Below, piece by piece: positions 5,897 to 53,001 of a DNA stretch of 64,000 bases; position 1 is the stretch's first letter; the number at the start of each line of letters is the position of its first letter. Source of the DNA: Acarospora socialis (Eukaryota > Ascomycota > Lecanoromycetes > Acarosporales > Acarosporaceae); assembly GCA_025617375.2 (NCBI GenBank), contig JAMYGW020000004.1, forward strand, positions 124,001 through 188,000, read 5' to 3'. The notes under the pieces are model-generated. The model worked only from the letters and a program-made list of their open reading frames with translations. It did no database searches and was not told the origin of the DNA. Made by a program: the position numbers and the translations under genes.

Positions 5897-7358
5897 ATGC
5901 TAGCGAGGACAACTACACGACTCAGATTTTTCTCTTCAATAATAATCTCACCTCGTCCTCAACTATCAATACTTACAAGACAGCCTAAAGCCACAGTCTT
6001 CATTGCAAACATGTCTTCCGGTGCTGGTGAAGGGGGTACGTTCAAGGTCATTGATGCCTCTCAATCTCAGGATCAGCCTGGGTAAGACATGCTTGACTCT
6101 GTCATCGTGTGTTCAATGAACTGACAAACCATGTAGCAAGGAGGCCGACAATGTCCCTACTAGTGAGGCCACCAAGCTTGAAGGACCGACAAAATTCCTT
6201 GAGTACTCGGGAGTTGGTAAGCTGAGGAGGAAGAAGGTCATCATTACTGGAGGAGAGTATGTCTTCACTCTCTTATGATCATGTCTACAACATCATCGGC
6301 ATTAGTCTGGGGTTCTTGAGTCATCGTTTCGGCATCAATTACCGTTGTCTGTCGACTTATCCCTTGCTTCCCTCAGCTGACAGATTTGCTTAGCTCTGGC
6401 ATCGGTCGTTCAGTAGCTATTCTCATGGCTCGCGAAGGTGCCGATATCACCATCGTTTACCTCCCCGACGAGCAGGAAGATGCCGAGGACACCAAGAAAG
6501 CTATCGAGGCCGAGAACCAACAATGTTTGCTGATGCCCGGTGACCTCATGGAGAACGCGACTTGCAGGAAGGTTATCGATGAGCATGTCAAGAAGTCAGT
6601 TCTTGTCTTTTCTAAATGCCTGGAGCCATGTCTAACTGATCATCGAAGGTTCGGAACCATTGACGTCCTAGTCAATAACGCCTCCAAGCAAGTGATGTGC
6701 CCGAATTTCGAAGAGATTGATCTCGAAATGACCGAAAGCATCTTCCGAAGCAACATTCTTCAGATGTTCGCTATCACCAAATATGCGCTGCCCCACATGA
6801 AGAAGGGTGCCTCGTGAGACCACACACCCTGTACCTGTCTAATCATAGCTCATCTCTTCTTACAGGATCATCAACACCACTTCCGTTGTTGCTTTCCGTG
6901 GTACAGGGGCTATGGTCGATTATGCTGCTACCAAAGGCGCCATTGTTGGATTCACCCGTGCTCTTGCCAAGAACCTTGTATCCAAGGGTATTCGTGTCAA
7001 TGGTGTAGCGTAAGCCTCCTTCCTCCTTCATGCTAATCCCTTCACTTGCAGCGCACGTTTCCGTCGGGTTCTGTTGCTAATCTCCATAACTACTCCTCTT
7101 AGACCCGGCCCAGTTTTCACACCTATCCAAACTGCATCCCGACCCGCCGAGCAAATGGAAGGTTTCGGGGCCGGATCTCAGATCGGGCGACCAGGTCAAC
7201 CAAGTGAAATCGCACCGACATATGTGTTCCTGGCCAGCGCGGAGGCGGAGCTATATTGTAGGTCCCACACCTACCCTTTTCCGAGACTATTGCTGATGAC
7301 TGCGTCTTCCGCGACTGCAGACGGACAGATTATGCATCCATATCCGCTTGGAGACTAG
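5897..7358 (+). CDS. Short-chain dehydrogenase/reductase (YhdF/glucose dehydrogenase-like)
   Basis: Seven exons: 5897-6081, 6137-6256, 6394-6594, 6649-6813, 6866-7009, 7103-7257, 7321-7358. All introns are GT-AG and all joins keep frame. The NAD(P)-binding motif TGGDSGIGRS is split by intron 2. The later motifs are NNASKQ, the serine of TTSVVAF, the catalytic pair in YAATK, and the PGPVFTPIQ cofactor loop. The end, YGQIMHPYPLGD, is typical of this long-SDR group, which includes bacterial stress oxidoreductases. The first 38 residues (Arg-, Ser- and Thr-rich, no acids) look like a mitochondrial presequence, and a second Met lies at 6011 where related proteins tend to begin, so two products with different locations are possible. 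The substrate is unknown. Confidence 0.9.
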
Positions 7359-8805
7359 AGCTCTTCAACGCTTCACATCAACAGGGCTTCCAGTTGCTAA
7401 GGTCAATCTTGCTCTAATACACGAGGGCGAAATAAGTAGGTAGCTTATGCTATAATAATGGCGCGCAACCAAATAAACCAGTCGTACGAGCTCTGCACTG
7501 ATGGGTTACCATGGTCTCGAAGCATATAGGTAGCATGTGCTCAATACACAGAAGCTGGTACCCATTCGAGTACTCTATCCCTCTGCACTCCATTCAATCC
7601 ATCCAGCGTGCACCGAACTACAAGTCCCACAATTACTAAGGTATCTACAGTCTAAAGGATGCGGACTCAAAAAGCGTGGTGCACGGTCGATACACAACAT
7701 TGTAGTCATTATAGTGAAGGAGACATGTTGTGAATCGCAAGTCCCGTCAAAGTGCTCCCTAAAACGGTACCCAGCACCAGTATTGCCCTGGGATTCTACC
7801 AACGTTGGCCGCTAGATTCAGAAAAGAGTACCCTATGCCTGAGAAGCCCATTTCTACCAGGTAGGTAAGTTAAGCCTACACCTTACACATACTCTAGTAC
7901 GAAGAGTAGCTACCTCTTATATGCTACCATAGATGCATGTCTTCGGACCGACTTACCCACACTCAGCGCTCACCCCGCAATTGAGCCCTGTTTTCGTGCC
8001 TGACCTGACTTGTTTTGATATCTACCATTACTAGCTGACATACCCAATTACTCCGTATATCTGCCGAGGACTCCGAGCTGGATCGTACTCTACACATACG
8101 GGACTTGGTTCGTTGTCTATATAGTTCTAGGTTGGACAGGATCGCCAACTGCTACACATTAATCATATGGGGAGCCTCCCAATGTTACTTGTATAGATGT
8201 CAAAGACTCCAATTCTTAATTGAAACACTCTTCTGAAGCCCTCCGATGATAATTGTATTGTACGGATGCCTAGTTACCTTCATCGCATGGGAGCCAAAAT
8301 GGTGGGGAAAAGGTCACGACGTATACCTCCACGATGCTATCCCCACATCGCGCTTGGGGGGGAACCGTTGTCCCGCTCTCCCGTCCTTCTCCACTCCAAT
8401 TGGAGCAAAGGGCAAGAACTGCTCAAACTAGGTCTCGCCTGGTTGAACTTAGATGTATTCTACACTTTACTCCCCTACTTCTGGTACTCTTACTCTGTGT
8501 GTATCTTTGACTTTGGAATTGTGACCGGGGTAGCTCCGTCGGCGGGGGAAGCTGCAGAAGCTATGATGCAGCTTGTTTGGTGTCACTCCAACTACCGTAG
8601 CTATGGCTTTCTTTCGCCGGGAGCCTATATCATGCAGCCGTTTCCCTTCCCTGAGTCTTCTTTTCCTTTGTCTGTCTTTTGCTTTTCTTTTCTCTTTACT
8701 TGAGAGCTCCTCGTGCGATCCATTGGCATCGAAGTCAGACACCCTACATTTGTGCGTCTTTGGTAATGAGAGCTTGATAGCTGATTCAGGGCCAGATCTG
8801 CCAAT
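7359..8805. other. Intergenic region without a supported gene
   Basis: Only short frames occur, none with a recognisable motif. The last few hundred bases would be the promoter of the GH31 relic. Several short copies of TAGGTAGGTA- or ACCTACC-like motifs are present, as elsewhere in the intergenic DNA of this window. Confidence 0.5.
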
Positions 8806-10017
8806 ATGCGCACCTCGCCGCTGTCATGGATCGCTGCTCTTGCATGCTACACGGCGTCCTTCGCTCCTTTTGCGGGAGCGGAAAGCCCTGACGTCGACAC
8901 AACTTCCATCTCGTCTGGAGGAGCCTTAGGTCGGACGTCAGCGGCGCAAGTGGGAACGGCAAGCTCGGCGTCGGGGACTGCAGTTATCAGTGGTAGCACT
9001 ACAAGTTTTAGACCCATTTTCACCGTTCCGCCCGAAGCTGCCGTTGGTGCCCCGGTTCTACCCAACATCAATGACCCTAAAGCGATTGACGCCCAGACCG
9101 TCTGTCCAGGCTACATCGGTTCGAATGTGGTCCGGACGCAATCTGGCTTGACGGCGACCCTCAAGCTGGCCGGGAAGGCGTGCAATGTCTACGGTACTGA
9201 TATCGACACTCTCAACCTCACGGTTGAGTACCAGTCATATGATAGGTTGTCGGTCAAGATCGTCCCAGCTGTCATTAACTCGTCCAACACATCCCAGTAC
9301 ATCCTACCAGACAACCTGGTACATGAACCTACAGTTGATGACCAAGCGAATATTGAGAGCTTGACCAATGATCTTGGCTTCGTCTGGAGCAACGATCCGA
9401 CCTTCTCCTTTACAGTGATTCGGAAGAATACCGGGGACGTCCTGTTCAGCACCGAAGGAACCAAATTGGTGTTTGAGAACCAATTTCTTGAATTCGTTAG
9501 CCCCCTACCAGAGAACTACAATCTGTACGGATTGGGCGAAGTTATCCATGGTTTAAGACTTGGGAACAATTACACGAGGACCATTTACGCTGCTGACGTG
9601 GGTGATCCGGTCGATTAGTGAGATTTCCAGCCACCAGTGTAGCCTGGGTATCGGTTGCTGACTGCTTGAGATAGCAACCTCTACGGCTCGCATCCGTTTT
9701 ATCTTGAGACTAGATACTTTGAAGTCGATAATACCACCGGAAACTTAACCCTAGTAACCGGCAACTCAGGCACGGGAAACAACTATGTCTCGTATTCGCA
9801 TGGGGTCTACCTACGCAACGCCCATGGCCAGGAAATCCTCCTACGCCCCGAGAACATCACATGGCGGACGATTGGGGGGAGCATTGACCTTTACTTCTTC
9901 GCCGGCCCGACCCAGCAAGAGGTGACTGCAGGATATCAGAAAGGAGCCATCGGTCTGCCGGCGATGCAACAATATTTTAGCTTCGGTCACCATGGGCGTT
10001 CAGCAGAGAGCAAATAA
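8806..10017 (+). pseudogene. GH31 alpha-glucosidase, N-terminal part only
   Basis: Exon 1 is 8806-9617 and exon 2 is 9675-10017, with a 57-nt GTGAGA...ATAG intron carrying a CTGAC branch site. The frame opens with a clear secretion signal (MRTSPLSWIAALACYTASFA) and a Ser/Thr/Gly-rich linker. It then follows fungal GH31 enzymes closely: LYGLGEVIHG, NLYGSHPFYLETRYF, GVYLRNAHGQEILL, GLPAMQQYFSFGHH. Family enzymes run to about 850-1000 residues, with the catalytic Asp in a WIDMNE-type motif several hundred residues downstream. Here homology stops right after FSFGHH and a stop codon follows seven residues later. The product of about 385 residues has no catalytic centre. A later piece of a GH31 gene lies 1.4 kb away on the other strand. 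A secreted non-enzymatic remnant cannot be excluded. Confidence 0.85.
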
Positions 10018-11436
10018 AGCAAGATCTGAGTGGGTTCATTTCGAACAAGAAGTCTCTACAAGAAATATGGTTGAATGACTGAATCATTCTTCATCTCATT
10101 ATGGAGCTGTTCGGATCAGAGGGGACAACGCAGGTCTTTGACCCAACACTCATTACTGAAGCCTTTCAAAACAGGACATAAAGATGCTAAATATCGACTC
10201 CCACTCCAAACCCCTTGCAATACCGTGTCATATCATCAACCACTGGAGTCTGATGGCCATCAGCACTGGCAAGCACTTCGCTCAAGTCATGGCTTCATCA
10301 CTATAGACTAACTTACTATACCAGGGTTCTACGGGTAGCAGCTGCACAAACGTCGTAACAGAGATCCACAAAGCTTTACCTGATCAGAGAAAACCTTTTG
10401 CAGCAGAAATTATACTCTTCAATGAAGCTGTACGGCAGTTCATCATTCAGAGAGATTCACAAAGCTTTATCTGATCAGAGAAAATCTTTTGCAGCAGAAA
10501 TTATACTCTTCAATGAAGCAATACGGTGGTCCATCATTCAGAAGCATGTCAACAGCTATTATTGATACTTTGTGGAGAGCCAAGAAGATTTAGATAAATC
10601 CACAGTCAATGATAACAAGATCAAGGTCATGACAGCTCTCAAAACATTCTGTGCCGTGTTCTGTGACCAAGATGAGTTTCACGACGATCGGTGCGCAATG
10701 GCTTTTCTGAAGACCCCTGCCTTGGTACTGAGCTAGCGCACCTGAGCGCATCGGGCTACAGATGATTCCAGTTCTGACTTGTCCAGGGGGACTTCACTTC
10801 GTTCAAAACATCATTCTTCAGAGCACGATAGCTCAGGATGATCTGAGGATCTTCACAGCTCGCTGAGAGTTTGGCCAACGCCGGCTGCGCCAGCTCTATT
10901 CGGGGGGGGATACGAGGTTTCTTCCAATACAAACTTCAGACAGATGGCCTGGTGTGATGTGATGAAAACTCTGGGTTCGGGCGAGCTCGATGAACTGCCG
11001 GTATCGAGAACTGGTGTGTTCGACTTACAACGAAGGGCGCTGTTGGCGCCGGTCCTCGTTGAGGATGGGCGGGCAACGGGTCCAGGTTGAAGCTGGACAG
11101 TTGCTCCTCTGATAGGCCCAATTCGGAGCTATTCAAGGCTGAGCTAAGTGTTCCATGTCGGAAAGGAATGCGGTTGTGGCTCCTCACCAAGACTACATAT
11201 GTATGGAGTCCTCCTCGGCCTATGCATATTTGGTCAAATCGAATCCCGATTATTCAGCATGGAGAGCTCTATGTAACAAAGAAATCTACTCTCAAGAACG
11301 ATGTTCAGTTGGTGGTTTGATGTCCTGAAGCGCTTCATTAAATGATGAAGGATCCGTGATACAATAGACCCAAAACCCTAAATACATAAGACTGCATAAT
11401 TACTACTTGTAAACTACCCCTAATTAGGTAGTGGTT
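10018..11436. other. Rearranged region between two GH31 pieces
   Basis: No intact gene. It contains a 91-bp tandem duplication with a coding-like reading and short coding-like shreds on both strands (for example 10936-11190 minus) that I cannot assign. The middle of the GH31 gene is missing from here. Confidence 0.5.
10361..10541 (+). repeat. 91-bp tandem duplication with coding-like reading
   Basis: Two head-to-tail copies, 10361-10451 and 10452-10541, differ at about ten positions. Each can be read as EIHKALPDQRKPFAAEIIL-like peptide, and the copies are out of frame with each other because the period is not a multiple of three. This suggests a decayed gene with an internal duplication. Confidence 0.75.
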
Positions 11437-12034: not shown

Positions 12035-13870
12035 TTAGAGACTACGACGCAGATGAAACTGCTTATCGTGCTCCGCTTTCTCCGACTCTTTTGCAGCCTG
12101 CCAGTCTTCGAGAGTGCCCCATCTTGCTATTCCGTCCGATCTTTGTACACTGGGTGGTTTGCCCGCAGCTTCTGCTTTTCTCGAACGTCTCAGATGCGAT
12201 TCAAAGTACCGGTTCTTTTCGTGCTGATGTTGGGTCATTTTCGGCTTGTCTTTACGGGGTACCTGGTCCACAGATGGCTGGTCGGACAACGGAAGGGGCT
12301 CCTCTTCTTTTTTGGCAACGCGACTTTCCACGCTCCGGATCACTAAATTCGCCGTAGCAGCGGGGTCTATTTTGCGGCTGCTGCTTTGGAGCCAGACTTG
12401 TTGGACTGACTGTTGTGTTGCCTCGTTATAGCCAATGCACAATTGCACCCCAAGCTGATGAGCTCTGCCGGTTGTAACAGTAGGTGGTCCGATACCTTGT
12501 GCCCATTGTTCCGGGGTATTCTCGGTGTGGTCCTTCCAGACAAAGAGCCGAAACCACAGCTTGGTACCATCCTTCCCAGGTTTAAGACGGTATGTATTGA
12601 CCAGTTCGGTGGGAACACTGAATTCCACCACTATGTGGCCTCTCTGTTTTATCCCTTTTTCGTTCACATGACGCTCGATGGTGCCGTAGCGTATGTGGTA
12701 GCCTATGTGGTAGCCTGACCTTGACTTGGAGTTGCGATGCAGCGTAGTCCAATACCCGTGTAACCGAGCCTCAAAGTACTTTCTTCTCTTGGACCCGACC
12801 TCGTTTCCAGCTGCCGCCTTACGGAAAATATTAGGCGCACACGGTAATGCTCTGTTCAACCCCTCGTACACCGGCTTGGGCAGATTGACAGGGTGCGCTC
12901 TCTGTGCCAGACGTACAGTCAGGTCCTCATCGCTCGTGTAAGGGTTTTTGTAGGTTCCGAGAAGCACGACTAGGGTTGTTTCCAGCAGGTCAAGGAAATC
13001 GGAACCTGTCTTTCCGGGTGGGGTAACTGCAAGGATAACGGGGCAGACCTCGACGCCAGGCTGTGCAGCTTCGAAGTGAATAGCCTGTACGGCCATCTTT
13101 TGTTTGATCTCGTCCTGTGTTGCGCCTGCTTCTAGATATGCCCGCGCTCTTCTGATTGTGGATTCATGGACCCCGAGGCGCTTATGAAGTGTTACAGAGG
13201 TACTACCGACATAAACTGCTGACAGCTCGTTGTTTCGCAGAAGCAGCAACGCATAAACGCCTGCTCGATGATGAAGTTCATCCTCTGCGCCGGCCAAAGT
13301 CAAGGGCCGTAGGTCGTCGAGAGAGCAACTGGAGGTTGATCCGAGGGCACTTCTGGTGGCAGGGCGGATAGTTGAGTATAGCATGGCTACAAATCTCTGC
13401 ATAGCAGTCTCCTGTAAGAACCTCCAACAGCGCCGACTCAGTGCAGTTTCCTCTGGGGAGAAAAAGTTACAGTTACTGGTATACTTTTTAGCCTCAACAT
13501 AGAGAGCCTCGGCGATGAACTGAAACCGTTCCCGAAAGAGCTTCACCTCGGCTGAATCTGAGCTGGATGCTTTCGCAGCAAGGATCCCAGGTTCGAAATC
13601 AGCTACTGGCCTGGAAGTGGCCTCACTAAGCTCGCCCTCCGAGAGTTCGGAACAGGATCCATCGGAGTCGGGAATGGCCAGCTCCAACTTGGAACCGTCT
13701 GAAGAGGAGTCGTCCTTGGTCGGAGATTTGTTCTTGGTGACAGTTCTTACTCTCTTTGACCTGGGAAGCTCTTCCCAATCCGACTCTTTCAGGAGTCTTT
13801 CCGTCTCCTGTTCCTCATCCTCCGCAAGTTCATAACAGCCTAACCCTCGTTTCACACCTCTTGATCTCAA
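12035..13870 (-). CDS. GIY-YIG nuclease-like multidomain protein (copy 1)
   Basis: One open frame of 611 codons. The residue numbers here count from 13870, which is a TTG; the frame stays open to about 13955 with no ATG, so the true 5' end is unresolved and an upstream exon is likely. Residues 1-110 are acidic and Ser-rich with a basic patch (RSKRVRTVTKNK). A helical part follows (about 110-175). Then a GIY-YIG-like core: GVY at 204-206, YVG at 220-222, basic KRL near 231, His 235, and the metal-binding Glu candidate in FLDLLETTL near 297. A C-terminal beta-like domain (about 430-530) contains LWFRLFVWKDHTENTP and AHQLGVQLCIGYN, and the tail is charged. The key GIY-YIG positions are present, so nuclease activity is plausible but not shown. 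The gene sits among GH31 fragments. The gene at 26427-28183 shares its plan. Confidence 0.7.
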   Translation of the reverse strand: MRSRGVKRGLGCYELAEDEEQETERLLKESDWEELPRSKRVRTVTKNKSPTKDDSSSDGSKLELAIPDSDGSCSELSEGELSEATSRPVADFEPGILAAKASSSDSAEVKLFRERFQFIAEALYVEAKKYTSNCNFFSPEETALSRRCWRFLQETAMQRFVAMLYSTIRPATRSALGSTSSCSLDDLRPLTLAGAEDELHHRAGVYALLLLRNNELSAVYVGSTSVTLHKRLGVHESTIRRARAYLEAGATQDEIKQKMAVQAIHFEAAQPGVEVCPVILAVTPPGKTGSDFLDLLETTLVVLLGTYKNPYTSDEDLTVRLAQRAHPVNLPKPVYEGLNRALPCAPNIFRKAAAGNEVGSKRRKYFEARLHGYWTTLHRNSKSRSGYHIGYHIRYGTIERHVNEKGIKQRGHIVVEFSVPTELVNTYRLKPGKDGTKLWFRLFVWKDHTENTPEQWAQGIGPPTVTTGRAHQLGVQLCIGYNEATQQSVQQVWLQSSSRKIDPAATANLVIRSVESRVAKKEEEPLPLSDQPSVDQVPRKDKPKMTQHQHEKNRYFESHLRRSRKAEAAGKPPSVQRSDGIARWGTLEDWQAAKESEKAEHDKQFHLRRSL

Positions 13871-14363
13871 AGTAGGGGCTTTACAGACAGATCTTATTAA
13901 TTTACAGTTGACACTTGCTGCATATGGTAGGAGATTATCTTACGCATCTTTAATCTCTCTATATTCCGTGTAGCATATCATAGGCGTGGTACATCTATCT
14001 TGACCACCATGCGTTAGCAGTCCCTTCTTCTCAACTTGACAAGCTTCAAGGAATCATTAAATGCAATTTGAAGCAGTGTTTTTCATCAACCAATACAGTT
14101 CCCATAGAATTGAAGTGGTTCTAAAGAACGAACAGTCTTTTGACAGGCGAACAAGACCTGCTGTGCTGCATCACCATGAGATGGCCCAATTACAACAGAT
14201 AGCTAAGAAGAATGCTTAAGAAGATAACAAAGCTCACTTACAGATTGAGTACTGATAGCTAGATTGCTGATTGATATCTTGTCAATGGTTAGAGATGGTT
14301 GTGATTCAACGGCGAATACCGCAAGCCCTATGTGTAGCCGAGTCCCACCAAACTCATCTCCGC

Positions 14364-14552
14364 CCACCAGTCCCACCGACTTCACCTCCGCCGCCGCCAC
14401 AACCTCCACCACCAGCCGCACCAGGCCCACCGGTCCCACCAACTTCACCCCCCCCGCCGCCACAACCTCCACCGGCAGCCGCACCAGGCCCACCAGTCCC
14501 ACCGACTTCACCTCCGCCGCCGCCACAACCTTCACCGGCATCTGCACCAAAA
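14364..14552 (+). repeat. 63-bp minisatellite, three copies
   Basis: Units 14364-14426, 14427-14489 and 14490-14552 are very similar. In one plus frame each encodes a 21-residue Pro-rich block containing PPTSPPPPPQPPP. The period is a multiple of three, so the frame is kept across copies. Confidence 0.85.
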
Positions 14553-17618: not shown

Positions 17619-18661
17619 CTAAAGGAGGTAGACGTTAGACAGGGTGCGGGTGCTGTTGACGGTGTATTTGTAGGAGGGGGGCGAGTCCAACGAAGAGGTT
17701 TCGGAGGCAAGGGATTGGAGGATGGAAAAAGTAGAAGATTGCGAAAGGAAATGTCCCGTAGATATAGTCCGAAGTGAAGTGAATTGTAGTAGAGTGAATG
17801 GAAATGTAGGCAGAGTGAATAGAATTGTAGGCTGAGTGAATGGAATTGTAGGCAGAGTGAATGCAGAGTGAATGGAACTGTAGGCAGAGTGAATGGAATT
17901 GTAGACAGAGTGAATCAGACCTAACTTGATATTGAGCGCACAAGTCAGATCAGAGGTTGGTGAATGTGAGATGTGCTTGACACTAAGCTCTAACAAGTGA
18001 TAGATGTTAGCCAAAGTGAGATGTAAGTGAGATCCCATTAGCTCACAATGAAAGCTTTGAATGAGTTGCTTGAGTAGATGGTTGAAGAGGAAGACAATAT
18101 TGAGAAGACTGTGAAGTGAATATGAAACCACAAACAACATAGAAGAGAAGATGAAGCTGAGGAAGGAAAGGCAGTTGCTCCCAGTTGGGAAGACCTCCAG
18201 ATCTCCTTGGTGTTCCTTCTCCACACAGGTTTGACGAACGGATATACATGTATGATCGATTGTATTCAATTTCGATGATTACCATTACACAAAACTTCCC
18301 TCTCATCCCATCCCACTGGAGTACTAACAAGGTGGTGCCGATGACACCTTCGCTTCCCTCAACAGCGCCGCCGATATGACGAGTGGTATTCTATCAACAA
18401 AAAAGAAGGGAAACGCAAAACCCAGAAAACACAAGACAAAGATCCGCTGCCCAAGGAAGGTCGCGAGCTAGGGATGAGTTCAAATCGGAACAGAACACGC
18501 TATCGCTATGACAAAGCCCCAGACGGGTATTGAGCCAACCACCAACTCCAATCCGGCCGATGTCTATGCACCATAGAAGAAGACCATCCCAGCACTACTC
18601 CTGGAGAGTATGCTTTGTTTCCCTTCATGTACTATTTGTACTTTACTGTTTCCGACTCTAG
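17619..18661. other. Region between the orphan gene and KIN4
   Basis: It contains the 21-bp minisatellite annotated below. The long minus frame 17619-18269 is hydrophobic and repeat-driven and is not called a gene. It may contain missing 5' exons of the orphan gene and the 3' UTR of KIN4. Confidence 0.45.
17773..17916 (+). repeat. 21-bp minisatellite, about seven copies
   Basis: The unit is close to GTGAATGGAATTGTAGGCAGA. Copies vary at one to four positions and one copy is shortened. The array lies just upstream of the first recognisable exon of the orphan gene. Confidence 0.8.
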
Positions 18662-28183: not shown

Positions 28184-28727
28184 CTGGAAGAGATTCAGGA
28201 CATTGGTTTGCTTTCTTTGCTGGCTTCTTGCTGGTTTAAAAAGGCGAGATACAAATTCTGTGCAGAGGTTACAGTAATGCTTCGTTCTGCTATTCACTCA
28301 CGAATAGTAAAATTTTCAAAAAGTCAAAAGAATTGCAGCACTACGGATGAAAACAATGGAGGTTGGCATCTTCCAGTGAATTAGAGCGACAGAGTTTTGA
28401 AGACACAAGGAGAAAGACAGAACAAATCCATTGCCCACTTCTAGAATCAGTTTCAATCCTGACAGTGGATGAGGCAGCTCGCTGGATTTGTGTGTTGAAC
28501 TCACTGTACTGTGTTCACCGAGGTGGCATGATAACGGATGTGCCATTCAGTCACTTGTTCATTAGGGCATGATCATCAGCTGAGATAACGTAGTTCAACA
28601 GCAACACGTATGATAGCAACGCCAGCTCGCCGAGAGGTTACCCAGAGGGCATCCCGCAACTTCACAATAACTTTGCAGAACACAAATTGGCATAAAATGG
28701 TAGCAAGAATTCAAAAAAAAATTTGAA
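28184..28727. other. Intergenic region upstream of GIY-YIG copy 2
   Basis: No gene seen. The end nearest the tRNA carries its T-tract terminator. Confidence 0.5.
28713..28721 (-). terminator. Pol III T-tract downstream of the tRNA-like gene
   Basis: Nine T residues on the minus strand begin six bases after the tRNA 3' end, as expected for Pol III termination. Confidence 0.7.
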
Positions 28728-28863
28728 GCCCGATGCGGGGGTCGAACCCGCGACTTATGCTTTGGTTAGCTTTGTAATGAGGAGAATGGAATAAAGATGT
28801 CTTACCCTTGAGATCGACGTGATTACGTAAGAGTCTCACGCTCTGCCATTAACCTAATCAGGC
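28728..28863 (-). tRNA. tRNA-Lys(CUU)-like gene with two internal inserts
   Basis: The acceptor halves GCCTGAT and ATCGGGC pair (one wobble). The anticodon stem TGAGA/TCTCA closes a loop with anticodon CTT. The T arm GCGGG-TTCGACC-CCCGC is perfect and serves as a B box. Insert 1, 28815-28827 (13 nt), sits just 3' of base 37, the usual place for a tRNA intron. Insert 2, 28754-28805 (52 nt), sits in the variable arm; it starts GTAAGA, has a pyrimidine-rich stretch and GCTAACC, and ends ATAAG. Removing both leaves a normal five-base variable loop, AGGTC. The D arm is weak: position 11 is G where pairing and the A box call for C, so the gene may be decayed. A clean T tract follows. Whether it is expressed cannot be seen. 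Confidence 0.75.
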
Positions 28864-29794
28864 TACTTTGATGATAGAGAATCTCTTTAATGATCTATAA
28901 TATGTAGCACTAAATCTCAAGCAGCCAAGATTGTAGTACTTTAGATTTGCGGTGCAACGAAATCTTGCACCCTGCCTCGTTTTCAGGATAAATCTGGCCG
29001 GGAAGGGGCACGCAATCATGCGGACGTGCCGTAAGCGGCGGCGCACGTTAGGCATACCTCCAATATGAGTCCCAAAATAACAGTGAAAAAGACAAACAGA
29101 AGAGTCCCAGTTGTATTCAGTTTATCATCTACATAAATTAAGAAGACGCCTTGTTTGACCGATTATGGTGGTTGTTTAGGTAGAGTAATTCCCCTTCTAC
29201 ATACGGAGGTCCTCCGTACGTTCCGCAAAGTCCAACCGCCGCAGCAATAATCAAGGCCGACCTACGAGGGTTTAGTATTGAGTCGCGGCAGCACATAGAA
29301 TCAACACACAACAATAGAAAACCATACTTCTAAGTATATTCCTAATGAATATACAGTAAATATAAACAGTGGCTCCTCAGAGATGTGATTTGTGTAGTTT
29401 GTTGTGGATTTGTTTAAGATGCTTATCGTCTTGCTTGCTGTGTTGCCGCTTATGGTACGCCCCATGACCTATTACTAAATCCTCATACCAATGATGTTGA
29501 AAGCTCAAGTACATGTATAGCGTATTCTACTACCAAAACACCTCAAGTTATCAGGGAGTTTCAATAGAAAACAGACCTCTCCTGCATGCATGGCCATATT
29601 ATCAACGCCGTCATGGAAAGGCGGCGGCCTATCGCCTCGGTCAAAGATGGCCGGCACTAGCCGAAGCATCCAGCGGACAAGTGACGGCTCTACTACTTTT
29701 GCCTCACACCTCACGATTGAGTTCACTCGAGGTCGAACATCAGCGACAAGTACTCTCTGTCATTTCTGTATAGCTAGGTAAGGCTCACACAGCG
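28864..29794. other. Intergenic region upstream of the acyl-CoA dehydrogenase gene
   Basis: No gene is supported. Short frames exist on both strands near 29505-29781 but have no ATG-led coding character. Confidence 0.5.
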
Positions 29795-31248
29795 ATGGCG
29801 TCTTTTATTTGGTCATTACGGCCCCTCGCACGAACCGCCACCTCTTGCCCCTCCGCACTCAAATCAGCAACGTCAAGGACACCACGATGGTAAGCCAAAG
29901 TGCCTTCGCCCTTCCCAATGGTCACTAACAATGCTACAGCACACGAATACTCTCAACTACAATCCCAAGACAACACGCCGACGTGCTCGACATCACCTCC
30001 GTCCCCCCGACGCCCATAACGCACATGTCCGAAACGGAAGCCATGATGGCGGAATCAGTCTCCAAATTCGCACAAGAAGTGATGCTGCCGCGTGTGCGCG
30101 AAATGGACGAGGCGGAAAAGATGGACCCGGCACTGATCGAGCAGCTGTTCGAGCAAGGCCTCATGGGCATCGAGATCCCCGAAGAGTACGGTGGCGCGGG
30201 CATGAACTTCACGGCGGGGATCGTGGGCATCGAGGAGCTGGCGCGCGTCGACCCGAGCGTGAGCGTGATGGTCGACGTCCATAACACGCTCGTCAACACG
30301 GCCATTCTGAAGTACGGCACTGAAGAGTCGAAGCGGAAATGGCTGCCGAAACTCGCGACCGAGACGGTGGGGTCGTTCTGTCTCTCCGAGCCGGCTTCTG
30401 GTTCCGACGCCTTTGCGCTGCGGACGAAGGCGGAGAAGACGTCGTCCGGCTACAGGATCAACGGGTCGAAGATGTGGATCACGAATGCGATGGAGGCGAA
30501 ATTCTTCATTGTCTTCGCCAACCTCGATCCGAGCAAGGGCTACAAGGGAATCTCGGCCTTCATCGTCGATAAAGACACGAAGGGCTTCTCCATCGCCAAA
30601 AAGGAGAGGAAGCTGGGTATCCGTGCTAGTAGTACGTGCGTGCTCAACTTTGACGACCTCGAGGTTCCGCACGATCACTTGCTCGGCGAGGAGGGGCAGG
30701 GCTACAAGTACGCCATTGGCCTGCTGAACGAGGGCCGCATCGGCATCGCGGCGCAGATGACGGGCCTCGCGTTGGGCGCTTGGGAAAACGCCGCAGGGTA
30801 AGGAATGGGATCTTCTATCCATTTGGCCCCCTTTCCCAACAACCAAGTGATTGACTGACTAACTGACGACCTCCCTAACAGCTACGTCTGGAACGACCGC
30901 AAGCAATTCGGCCAGCTGGTCGGCGCCTTCCAAGGCATGCAACACCAGATGGCGCAAGCCTACACCGAGATCAGCGCCGCACGCGCGCTCGTCTACAACG
31001 CGGCGCGGAAGAAAGAGGCGGGCGAGGACTTTGTGCGGGACGCGGCCATGGCGAAGTTGTACGCGTCGCAGGTGGCGGGACGGGTGAGCGGGTCGGCGAT
31101 CGAGTGGATGGGGGGCATGGGCTTTGTGCGGGAGGGGATCGCGGAGAAAATGTGGCGCGATAGTAAGATTGGGGCGATTTATGAGGGCACGAGTAATATT
31201 CAGCTGCAGACTATCGCCAAGCTGTTGCAGAAGCAATATACGAAGTAG
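29795..31248 (+). CDS. ACADSB: Short/branched-chain acyl-CoA dehydrogenase, mitochondrial
   Basis: Three exons: 29795-29889, 29940-30797 and 30882-31248; 439 residues. The leader MASFIWSLRPLARTATSCPS is a good mitochondrial presequence. The core follows the family throughout: EEYGGAGMNFTAGIVGIEEL, GSFCLSEPASGSDAFAL (FAD and substrate contacts), GSKMWITNA, GRIGIAAQMTGLA, RKQFGQLVGAFQ, and YEGTSNIQLQTIAKLL, which holds the catalytic Glu at the position used by short- and branched-chain enzymes. The reaction is alpha,beta-dehydrogenation of short or branched acyl-CoA (for example 2-methylbutyryl-CoA), with electrons passed to ETF. It serves isoleucine breakdown and beta-oxidation. Exact chain preference is inferred from similarity to ACADSB. 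Confidence 0.92.
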
Positions 31249-39026: not shown

Positions 39027-41409
39027 ATGGATCATCAGCCGTCGACACCCGCTGTTGGCAATACCAGTGCTTTGTTCGCCCAAAACCATTTGAGTGGTCA
39101 TCCATCAAATGGCTTTGGGAATTCTACCGGCACGCCACTTTCAGCAACTTCTTCGAACATGACCTTCCAGATGCCCATCAGTCCCGTCAAAGGACGTCGA
39201 AGTAGTGGTGATGGATACAGGCCAAAGATTGCACGGACCTGTGGACAGAGACCCGCATGCCTTGTCAATGCCTCTGTCACATACTGCGGAAACAACCAGA
39301 TCTATGCGTTTGGCGGCTTCGACCAATATACGGATGAAGGTACGCTCATCCAACACTCATTTCATATCTTCACCGTACCTAACACAAGAGAGTTAAGCTA
39401 ATGCATTGACCGTTTAGTCTACAACCATGTATTGAAATTGGATCTTGGGACGTTGCAATGGAACCTTGTAGATAACTATGGAGATATTCCTGGGGTTCGA
39501 ATGGGTGAGCTCTTGTCTCTACTCTTCACCGCTCTGAGCACTCACTAATTTGAAAGGGCATACTGCATGCCTGTGGGAAGGGGACAAGCTCTTGGTTTAT
39601 GGAGGGGAGAACGAGCACAGGGAATACCTGTCGGATCTTGTCATCTTCAATCTGCGGACTGCGCACTGGACACAGCCCGATGTTCGGGGACAAATCCCGA
39701 AAGGAAGAGCCCGACACGCCGCCGTTGTTCATAATGACAAACTTTTCATTATTGGAGGGCTGACGGGAAGTGATACATACACCCTAGACGACGTGTGCTA
39801 TCTTGACCTCAAAACATGGACTTGGTCTCGGGCGTGGAGTTTTGTGGGAAGGTTCGATCACTCGGCTTGGGTTTGGGGCGGCCGTTTGTGGGTATTCGGT
39901 GGGCTAGGTCCTGACATGGAACGTGGTGGTGAGCTGTGGTGGCTTGATATCAAGGGAAATCCTGCCTTCACGACAGCACCGACCTATGGCACGACTGAAG
40001 TTTCGAGTACCGGGGAACGGTTTGGACAAAGCCCACGGGTTTCATTCACCCAGCCTCTTCAAAACCTCCCCACGGGGACCAGCGGTTATACAGCCAACTC
40101 AAGCAGCGTCCAGGTCAGAGCTTCATCACTTGTCCCCAAACCGGTGGCTCCAGGCGCAATATCGACGGTAAGGTTCGTCTCGGGCGCCAACGTACCTTCA
40201 CAGGCGCTAGGGACCCATTTTCATGTGTACTCTTCCGGCACGTTGCTTGACTTCGTTACCCCTGCTGGCACTATCCGCCCTTCAGAGTGCAATCTCTCCT
40301 CATTGGAGCTGGATACATTACGCTGGCAGAAGTTAGCTGAAGGTCCGGAGATCTTCGACCCAACGTACAGATGGCACTACTGTGCTGTGAATGAAGATGG
40401 TACTAAAGCTTGGCTTCTCGGCTGTGCAACTGACCCCCCTGAGAATGGTGGGGGTGCCAACTTCGAGAATTATCTCAGTGATGTCCTGCCAGTCGATCTG
40501 AAGAGATTTGGTTTGCTGGGTAATCATGCCGTTGCAGAAACCGGATCAGGAAAGAGAAAGATGCCCGCAAGTGACCGCAACCCATCATCATCACTTGGCG
40601 CCCTCGGAACCGATCTTGCATCGATGTTTGATCAGATTCCTGAGTCCGGCAGCGGTGCAGACTTTGTCATTACAGGCGAGCGAGACGATGAGGACGATGA
40701 GAGATCCATCATGACACTGCATACAGCAGCCCAGGAGCAGGAGTTTGCCACGCCGAACACCTCGACTTCCGCTCCAATTCACGTGCACAAACTGATACTA
40801 CAGGCCCGCTGGCCGCATTTTGGCCGCCTCTATGCTTCACAGATGGCCGAATTTCACACCAAGAGAATGCACATACCCGAGCCGTACTCCGTGGTGCGAG
40901 CATTTCTTTACTATCTGTATACTGATAGTATAAGTTATCACTCAGAGTACTGTGCGGGTTTAAGCGATGTGGCGGGTATGCTTGTCATGGCGAACGTGTA
41001 TGACATGCCACGGTTGCGTCTATTGTGCTTGCATCGATTGAGCAGAGAGCTAGACGTTCAGCATGCTGCAGTGATCTGGGAGCGCGCGGCGACCGCGAAC
41101 GAAGAGTGGCTGAAGAGGAGAGCTTCCATTTACTGTATGACACATTGGGGCCGAGTGGTTCGAACGGAAGGCTTCCGGAGGCTAAGCAGACAAAGCTTGA
41201 TGGAGCTTTGTGAGGTCGTCGATATGGAAGGTCGCGTAGTAGGTGGTGAAGAGCTTGAAGTCTTTGGCGGATTAGGCGGTGGTCGAATCGGCGTTGGGGG
41301 AGTGGGGCGTGAAGGATACAAAGCCAGGGGTAGTCTTGCTGGGGCCCAGCCTGGGGAGGAAACCGAGGACGGGGACGGGGAAGAAGACGAGGGTATGGAT
41401 GTCAACTGA
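39027..41409 (+). CDS. Kelch-repeat protein with BTB domain (Ral2/LZTR1-like)
   Basis: Three exons: 39027-39339, 39418-39504 and 39557-41409; 750 residues. The first in-frame ATG (39027) is taken as the start. Kelch blades lie at about 75-340: QIYAFGGFDQY, HTACLWEGDKLLVYGGENEH, KGRARHAAVVHNDKLFIIGG, and HSAWVWGGRLWVFGGLGPD. After a Ser-rich spacer there is a BTB fold: GADFVITGE, an acidic insert, IHVHKLILQARWPHFGRLYA, and YSVVRAFLYYLYTDSI. BACK-like helices follow, and the tail is acidic. The kelch-then-BTB order recalls fission yeast Ral2 and animal LZTR1, both tied to Ras control, and BTB-kelch proteins in general serve as Cullin-3 adaptors. The link to Ras is inference from layout only. 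Confidence 0.82.
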
Positions 41410-51008: not shown

Positions 51009-53001
51009 ATGCCTAACCCACGAGTCGTTCCATGTCAATCACTCCTCCGGTCGTCTCTGAGGACATCACCTGGCCTACCATGCGCTCGCGAGTCCTTTCA
51101 GCCACTGTTACGGCAGCGGAGAAACTTCCGGGTTCTCAGATCCCTCCAAGAGGAAGAACGGTCGTTCAAGGGACAATTATATGAGAGCACCTCACAGCGA
51201 CTGCAGCGCGAAAGGGCGGAGCAACGCCGCTTCGCCAAAGAGCGCGGGGAGAGCAGCGGAGGTCGGAATGCCGCCATTACGTTCGGTATGTGTATCTAAA
51301 TGGAGGCAACGAGATCCCATCGGCCATATGACTGACAGTGTACAGTCGTCCTATTCTCGTCCTTGACATGCTACTACCTTGGCTCCCTCCGCCCCGCCAC
51401 CCCGTCCACCGCCTCCACCACCCCTCTTGCCGCGGTCCAACCGCCCAAACACAACACCGCCCCGGCAAACCTGCAGGCGGCCTGGGCAGACTTCGTCAGT
51501 GTCGTCGGTGAAGAGAACGTCTCGACCAAGGAGGGCGATCTCGACTATCATTCGGGCTCGGACTGGTCGAGCTACACGTCGAAGGAGCACGAGAAGCCTT
51601 TCTGCATCGTCTTCCCTTCCAGCACCGAGGAGGTCAGTCGCATCATGAAGGTATGTCATGAGAGGATGATCCCAATCACGGCGTACTCGGGTGGGACGAG
51701 TTTGGAGGGGCACTTTTCGCCGACGCGGGGGGGCATCTGCATCGATTTCGGGCGAATGAATAAAATCCTGAAGTTGAATAAGGCGGATTTGGATGTTGTC
51801 GTGCAGCCGGCTCTAGGGTGGGAGTTGTTGAACGAAGAACTAGGGGAAGAGGGGCTGTTCTTCCCTCCGGATCCCGGTCCGGGGGCCATGATCGGGGGCA
51901 TGGTGGGCACCGGCTGCTCGGGCACCAACGCATATCGATACGGCACGATGCGGGACTGGGTGCTCAGTTTGACGGTGGTAATGGCAGACGGCACGGTCAT
52001 CAAGACGAGACAGCGGCCTCGAAAAAGCAGCGCAGGCTACGATCTGACGCGGATGTTCATCGGAAGTGAGGGCACACTGGGGCTGGTCACGGAGGCAACA
52101 TTGAAGGTTACGGTCAAACCGAAGAGTACGAGCGTGGCTGTCGCAAGCTTCCCTACCGTTCGCGACGCTGCGGTATGTGTGGCCAAGGTCGTGGGAGAGG
52201 GCATACCCATCGCAGCCATCGAGGTGCTCGACGACGTGCAGATGAAATGCATCAACGAGAGCGGCTCCACAACTCGGCAGTGGAAAGAAGCGCCCACACT
52301 GTTCTTCAAGTTCACGGGGACGACGACGGGCGTGAAGGAGCAGATCAAGCTCGTTGAGAAGATGGCCAACAGTGCAAAGTCGAAGAGTTTCGAGTTTGCA
52401 AAGAACGCCGACGAAGCGGCCGAGTTGTGGAGCGCAAGGAAAGAGGCGTTGTGGAGCGTAATGGCAAAGAGACGGGATGACAGTGACCATGTGTGGACGA
52501 CCGACGTGGCCGTCCCGATTAGTAGGCTGCCGGATATTATCGAGCAGACGAAAGAGGATATGAGTAAGAGCGGTTTGCTCGGTACAATTGTGGGACATGT
52601 AGGGGATGGGAACTTCCACTGTGAGTACTTCAGATACGAAAGGGGATGCATGGGCTAAATACCATAGCAATCTTACTATTCAACGACAAAGAGCGCCAGG
52701 TCGCTGAGGGCCTCGTCCATCGGATGGTCAAGCGGGCCGTCGAGATGGAAGGGACAGTCACGGGCGAGCATGGGGTTGGTCTGATCAAGCGTGATTACCT
52801 GGCTCACGAGCTGGGCGAGACGACGGTCGATGTGATGAGACATGTGAGTCTTTGAACCCCAAACTCAGGCAACAGTTTCAGACCATCTGCTAACGCGCTG
52901 AAACGTAGCTCAAACAAGCATTTGATCCGCTGTCCTTGCTGAACTGCGACAAGATCGTGCGTGTCGAGAGGCCGAAGCCTGGCGAGGTGCAGGAATGGTA
53001 G
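51009..53001 (+). CDS. DLD1: D-lactate dehydrogenase (cytochrome), mitochondrial
   Basis: Four exons: 51009-51285, 51346-52620, 52668-52843 and 52909-53001; 606 residues. The first ~50 residues are Arg/Ser-rich with no run of acids, a mitochondrial presequence. A hydrophobic anchor (FVVLFSSLTCYYLGSL) near residue 95-110 fits inner-membrane insertion. FAD-binding motifs: CIVFPSSTEEVSRIMKVC, ITAYSGGTSLEGHFSPT, and GTGCSGTNAYRYGTMRDWVL. The C-terminal catalytic half has GTIVGHVGDGNFHS and VTGEHGVGLIKRDYL, carrying the metal-site His residues of this VAO-type family. The enzyme oxidises D-lactate to pyruvate and reduces cytochrome c, linking methylglyoxal detoxification to respiration. Joins rebuild the HVGDGNFH region exactly. 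Confidence 0.95.

Follow-up and report, generated by a model that had tools for sequence, protein, structure and literature searches.

Introns in nuclear tRNA genes are, as a rule, regarded as substrates of the tRNA endonuclease. The locus described here raises the question of whether such a gene can also carry an intron of the type found in mRNA precursors. The locus lies within the 64-kb stretch of Acarospora socialis DNA that we analyzed (the window). An initial annotation had placed a tRNA-Lys(CUU)-like gene with two inserts at 28728-28863, without giving a strand. We found that the gene is real and lies on the minus strand, where it runs from 28863 to 28727 once the discriminator base is included. 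Up to an E value of 1, the 64-kb window has a single Rfam match, to the tRNA family RF00005, and it spans these same minus-strand positions. It scores 32.5 bits, against a gathering threshold of 29, with both inserts still in place. The identification of the gene (28727..28863) is based on this match and on the ARAGORN result after removal of the inserts.

The two inserts divide the gene into three exons, and all features of the gene given below are on the minus strand. Exon 1 (28828..28863) contains the 5' strand of the acceptor stem, the D arm, and the anticodon arm up to base 37, and it holds box A. The 13-nt insert that follows, CGTAATCACGTCG (28815..28827), is at the canonical 37/38 intron site, as judged by its position in the cloverleaf, and is the presumed substrate of the tRNA endonuclease. 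Exon 2 (28806..28814) is short, consisting of base 38, the 3' strand of the anticodon stem, and the bases AGG of the variable loop. The second insert, of 52 nt (28754..28805), lies in the variable loop and separates base 46 from base 47, with a possible shift of one base. Exon 3 (28727..28753) supplies the remaining TC of the variable loop, the T arm, the 3' strand of the acceptor stem, and the discriminator.

We ran ARAGORN on three variants of the gene: uncut, with the 52 nt removed, and with both inserts removed. With both inserts removed and artificial A20/T20 flanks added, the program called tRNA-Lys(ctt). The acceptor stem is then complete (7/7 pairs, one of them G-U), as are the anticodon stem (5/5) and the T stem (5/5), and the variable loop is the five-base AGGTC. 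These results bear out the annotation, which had claimed that exact removal of the larger insert restores a five-base variable loop and a perfect T arm. The product is 72 nt long with its own discriminator; the length of 74 reported by ARAGORN counts flank bases. When only the 52 nt were removed, the call was Val(tac) under all three settings. The uncut gene, with both inserts in, received no call under two of the three settings, and ARAGORN called no tRNA in the 64-kb window as a whole. At the loosest setting (-io -ps50), the uncut gene was read as Lys(ctt) containing one intron of 44 nt, and the anticodon stem of this parse has a mismatch. We dropped this one-intron parse because of that mismatch, as opposed to the complete stems and the five-base variable loop obtained with two inserts.

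The D stem is the weakest element of the cloverleaf, as the annotation had noted for the D arm. It has three of four pairs, including one G-U, and a G-G mismatch. On our reading of the Rfam alignment, the mismatch is G11-G24 in the standard numbering; ARAGORN places the stem in a slid register in which the G-G is outermost. In minimum free energy predictions, neither the precursor nor the mature form folds as a cloverleaf. These folds do not discriminate, because the mature form also misses the cloverleaf.

The 52-nt insert reads GTAAGACATC...GCATAAG and has the overall layout GTAAGA..GCTAACC..ATAAG. We predict that it is a spliceosomal-type intron, on the basis of its GTAAG start, its branch site, and its AG end. 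The donor GTAAGA (28800..28805) fits GTRWG, and the final T of GTRWGT is missing. A pyrimidine run, TTCTCCTC, is at 28779..28786. The branch site GCTAACC (28764..28770) has its branch A at 28766, and a further 12 nt remain before the insert ends. Its GCTAAC agrees with the fungal branch consensus RCTRAY, in sequence and in the expected distance of 6-36 nt from the acceptor (PMC5832005). The acceptor ATAAG (28754..28758) ends in AAG instead of the typical, though not obligatory, YAG, and a second, nearer AAG ends 6 nt past the branch A. By itself, the 52 nt folds weakly (-2.1 kcal/mol). The ends of the insert are fixed by the tRNA to within a one-base shift; therefore, neither a length nor a start was picked to fit the signals. 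The bases TAAG occur near both ends, inside the insert. By eye, we saw no transposon-style marks, neither inverted ends nor a target-site duplication exceeding a single base.

The window also contains intron-bearing eukaryotic protein genes, including those for CDC20/Fizzy, GWT1, a TFIIA alpha/beta subunit, an acyl-CoA dehydrogenase, a Kelch/BTB protein, a protein kinase, and a FAD-linked oxidase. Both the form of the introns and the set of genes are suggestive of a filamentous ascomycete. As reference introns, we used those with protein-family matches on both sides. The short-chain dehydrogenase (SDR) gene contains a 52-nt intron at 6814-6865. Its removal joins both halves of the gene, and the joined protein aligns without gaps to PDB 3i3o. 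The Kelch/BTB gene contains another 52-nt intron, at 39505-39556, which is supported by the continuity of the Kelch domain and has an AAAG acceptor. It appears, from the sequence of this intron, that an AAG acceptor is in use elsewhere in the window. The acyl-CoA dehydrogenase intron at 30798-30881 has the signals GTAAGG ... CTGAC/CTAAC ... ACAG and family matches on both sides. The annotation had likened the insert to mRNA introns of this genome, and the likeness is seen in the similar signals at 30798-30881 and in the AAAG acceptor at 39505-39556. An intron at 52844 in the FAD-linked oxidase gene has a family match on the upstream side only.

A list of 25 candidate introns derived from reading frames was used for no count, as it was mixed with chance matches and missed both of the supported 52-nt introns. 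A candidate at 9618, in what was first taken as a glycosidase gene, is without Pfam support. At this place, two long frames spanning 8785-10014 on the plus strand could be joined by an intron-like 57 nt, and they have no Pfam match. They are followed by broken-looking frames, possibly those of a truncated gene. The window also contains tandem repeats. A 91-nt unit occurs in two tandem copies with 91% matching at 10360-10542, where there is no clear gene; a 63-nt unit occurs in three copies at 14362-14549; and overlapping arrays with units of 21, 32, and 53 nt occupy 17773-17919.

A blastn search with the 52-nt insert found no real relative or second copy in the 64-kb window. The best other matches were 13 identical nt (E = 0.033) and 16 nt at 94% identity (E = 0.13). 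The other collections that we scanned for relatives were prokaryotic and viral; a pattern describing a tRNA-Lys whose variable loop contains a GT..AG insert was found in none of the viral contigs and in none of the prokaryotic genome contigs, and such misses say little about fungi. A longer pattern, with a fungal-type Lys(CUU) anticodon arm and 0-30 nt between its parts, had no match in the viral contigs. The anticodon-arm scan with a shorter pattern gave three matches in the prokaryotic genome contigs, and Rfam found no tRNA at any of them. A looser pattern of branch site plus T arm matched two viral contigs. ARAGORN found no tRNA at either match, and we read both as chance.

We then asked how far explanations other than an intron gained by a tRNA gene account for these features. 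Could the 52 nt be chance filler with intron-like letters? The insert is a single locus, which leaves room for such an accident. However, the signals are rare. Both strands of the 64 kb contain 127,898 windows of 52 nt, of which 471 have the form GT...AG, and 32 of those have a GTRWG donor. Adding the requirement of a branch site placed 6-25 nt before the end (the relaxed test) leaves four windows. The strict combination of GTAAG, a CTAAC branch at this same distance, and AG is found in one window of the 127,898, and this is the tRNA insert. Among the three other relaxed matches, two are homology-supported mRNA introns, also of 52 nt, and the third, at 12691, is on the opposite strand of a 611-aa open reading frame (ORF). 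A first-order Markov null model fitted to the local sequence (28600-28950) gave 5 relaxed and 1 strict match in 400,000; these numbers are to be doubled, as two registers are possible. Chance filler is therefore barely credible. We confirm that the observation is genuine and not chance, and the claim that an intron-like insert fits exactly into this tRNA is well supported by both the ARAGORN stems and the window counts. A second explanation keeps the insert within the tRNA world. It would be an ectopic intron of the kind seen in tRNA genes of the red alga Cyanidioschyzon merolae, with the tRNA endonuclease as the cutting enzyme. Eukaryotic tRNA endonucleases use the mature domain as their measuring point. 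The 52-nt insert forms, in one register, three of the four central pairs of a bulge-helix-bulge (BHB), with 2/3 and 1/3 pairs in the outer helices; in the other register, the central helix has 2/4 pairs and the outer helices have 0/3 each. The BHB is thus incomplete in both registers. The 13-nt insert has no complete BHB either (1/4, 2/4, and 2/4 central pairs in three registers), and the 52-nt insert comes closer to one in its better register, so the BHB test is weak. Because of this weakness, the case against removal of the 52 nt by the endonuclease rests mainly on the splice signals; GT, branch site, and AG would all have to be a coincidence. Ectopic introns do have precedents, BHB-mediated in C. 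merolae and, in the nucleomorph of the cryptomonad Guillardia theta, with many examples without a defined BHB (PMC3978253, a review of permuted tRNA genes). Even with these precedents, we regard this explanation as very improbable for the locus.

The two other explanations accept the 52 nt as a spliceosomal-type intron and differ from the preferred one in what the gene around it is. The annotation had offered transcription by Pol II, as part of a longer RNA, as an option. The tRNA-like sequence would then belong to the 5' leader of a downstream gene or to a non-coding RNA, and the 52 nt would be an ordinary leader intron. The mRNA type of the signals agrees with this proposal, as does a same-strand ORF (28297-27521) that starts about 430 nt downstream of the tRNA gene. 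No Pfam family matches this ORF, which may not be a real gene, and an ordinary leader intron would leave the exact restoring of a five-base variable loop unexplained. The sequences within and behind the tRNA gene also argue for Pol III. The consensus of box A is TRGYNNARNNG and that of box B is GGTTCGANNCC. The gene has a box A-like element, TAGGTTAATGG (28846..28856), with one mismatch (10/11), and a box B, GGTTCGACCCC (28738..28748), that matches perfectly. A scan for T runs found a run of nine, T9 (28713..28721), which has the form of a Pol III terminator and is separated from the tRNA by a gap of 5 nt. No other T run of 8 or more occurs on either strand of the 64 kb. With runs this sparse, one would fall within 20 nt behind any given point with a probability of about 0.00016. 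A TATA-like TATTATAG (28895..28902) is at about -39 to -32 from the gene; this is a weak match seen by eye, with no control. Internal boxes and a T-run terminator are the marks of a type-2 Pol III gene, and we would class the locus as a putative one. The Pol II option becomes less likely with T9 directly behind the gene, a perfect box B, and a near-perfect box A, and we now consider it improbable. More serious, although we still think it unlikely, is the explanation that the copy is dead, as the annotation cautioned, or dying. A tRNA-Lys(CUU) gene that was once normal would have been inactivated by the gain of the intron and would now be drifting, while the genome relies on other Lys-CUU genes; fungal genomes normally carry several. 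The G-G and G-U pairs of the D stem and the mismatch in box A suggest that the copy may be decaying. However, no pair is missing from the acceptor, anticodon, or T stem, and box B, T9, and all three intron signals are intact. There has been little drift, if any.

Most likely, on the present reading of the sequence, the locus arose when a tRNA-Lys(CUU) gene acquired an intron of spliceosomal type. In its fuller form, we think it probable that this is a nuclear Pol III-type gene with a 13-nt tRNA intron at 37/38 and a 52-nt GT-AG intron of spliceosomal type at 46/47. Whether it is a working gene, with a Pol III transcript that needs the spliceosome for the 52 nt and the tRNA endonuclease for the 13 nt, is in our judgment evenly balanced. 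The anatomy of the gene, the ends of the inserts, the splice signals, and the terminator are read directly; transcription, splicing, the order of the steps, and the function of the product are what we infer from them. The points against this explanation are the G-G and G-U of the D stem, the box A mismatch, the AAG acceptor, the nearer AAG, the last base of the donor, and the three of four central BHB pairs that the 52-nt insert has in one register.

We suggest the following course of events for a working gene. Pol III would read the gene from its internal boxes through to T9. The 52-nt intron, protruding from the variable loop of the transcript, would be removed by the nuclear spliceosome, by analogy with the Pol III transcript of fission yeast U6. 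The tRNA endonuclease and a ligase would then remove the 13-nt intron. As for its origin, a functional tRNA gene may have gained the intron whole, one conceivable route being reverse splicing into the tRNA and subsequent conversion back to DNA. The insert fits exactly, and no target duplication is visible by eye, which agrees with the insertion of a complete intron.

If this explanation is true, the spliceosome can accept tRNA precursors made by Pol III, and two splicing systems act in series on one 72-nt product. The locus would also be a clear record of intron gain, in an RNA for which every base of the uninterrupted form is known. It is possibly one of an overlooked class, as standard eukaryotic tRNA scans would ignore introns in the variable loop. 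In tRNAscan-SE 2.0, noncanonical introns are analyzed for candidates from the archaeal search model, and the available part of its description mentions no comparable step for eukaryotes (PMC8450103). More fungal genes of this kind could therefore be unseen or scored as pseudogenes. Further tRNA genes with variable-loop introns can be searched for directly in fungal genomes.

Among the open-licence literature matches listed, we found no title or opening of an abstract that describes a tRNA gene with a spliceosomal intron. According to its title, a 1993 paper deals with introns of mRNA type in the nuclear 18S rRNA genes of fungi. Those introns are likewise of mRNA type in a nuclear structural RNA, but their host is a Pol I transcript and not a tRNA. 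A tRNA of Thermofilum pendens is said to have an intron in the variable loop, again according to a title. It shares its position with the 52-nt insert; unlike the gene described here, it is archaeal, and its intron is presumably cut by the endonuclease. The string "spliceosom" is absent from the accessible part of a review of tRNA introns (PMC4090602). The extra introns of C. merolae and G. theta resemble the 52-nt insert in lying outside 37/38 in nuclear or nucleomorph tRNA genes. However, they are set in a BHB context, and none is described with spliceosomal signals in the portion of the review available to us (PMC3978253).

Spliceosomal introns themselves can be freshly gained in fungi, for example by way of introner-like elements (PMC8476143). 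Such elements are multicopy, near-identical introns. Within the 64-kb window, the 52-nt insert has no second copy. Among small structured RNAs, only U3 and U6 are known as often interrupted by introns, according to the accessible text of a 2017 survey (PMC5832005). The fungal U3 snoRNA introns differ from the insert in their average length of 92 nt and in their acceptors, which are YAG with a single exception (PMC5832005). Fungal U6 snRNA introns are alike in being mRNA-type introns in a small RNA transcribed by Pol III. In fission yeast, the U6 intron is spliced during maturation of the RNA and is thought to have arisen by reverse splicing (PMC10484740). Unlike a tRNA, U6 is itself a component of the spliceosome, which suggests how its intron found a way in; the tRNA-Lys host, in turn, also has a tRNA-type intron. 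On this comparison, the introns of U6 and U3 appear to be the nearest precedents for the insert in the tRNA-Lys(CUU) gene.
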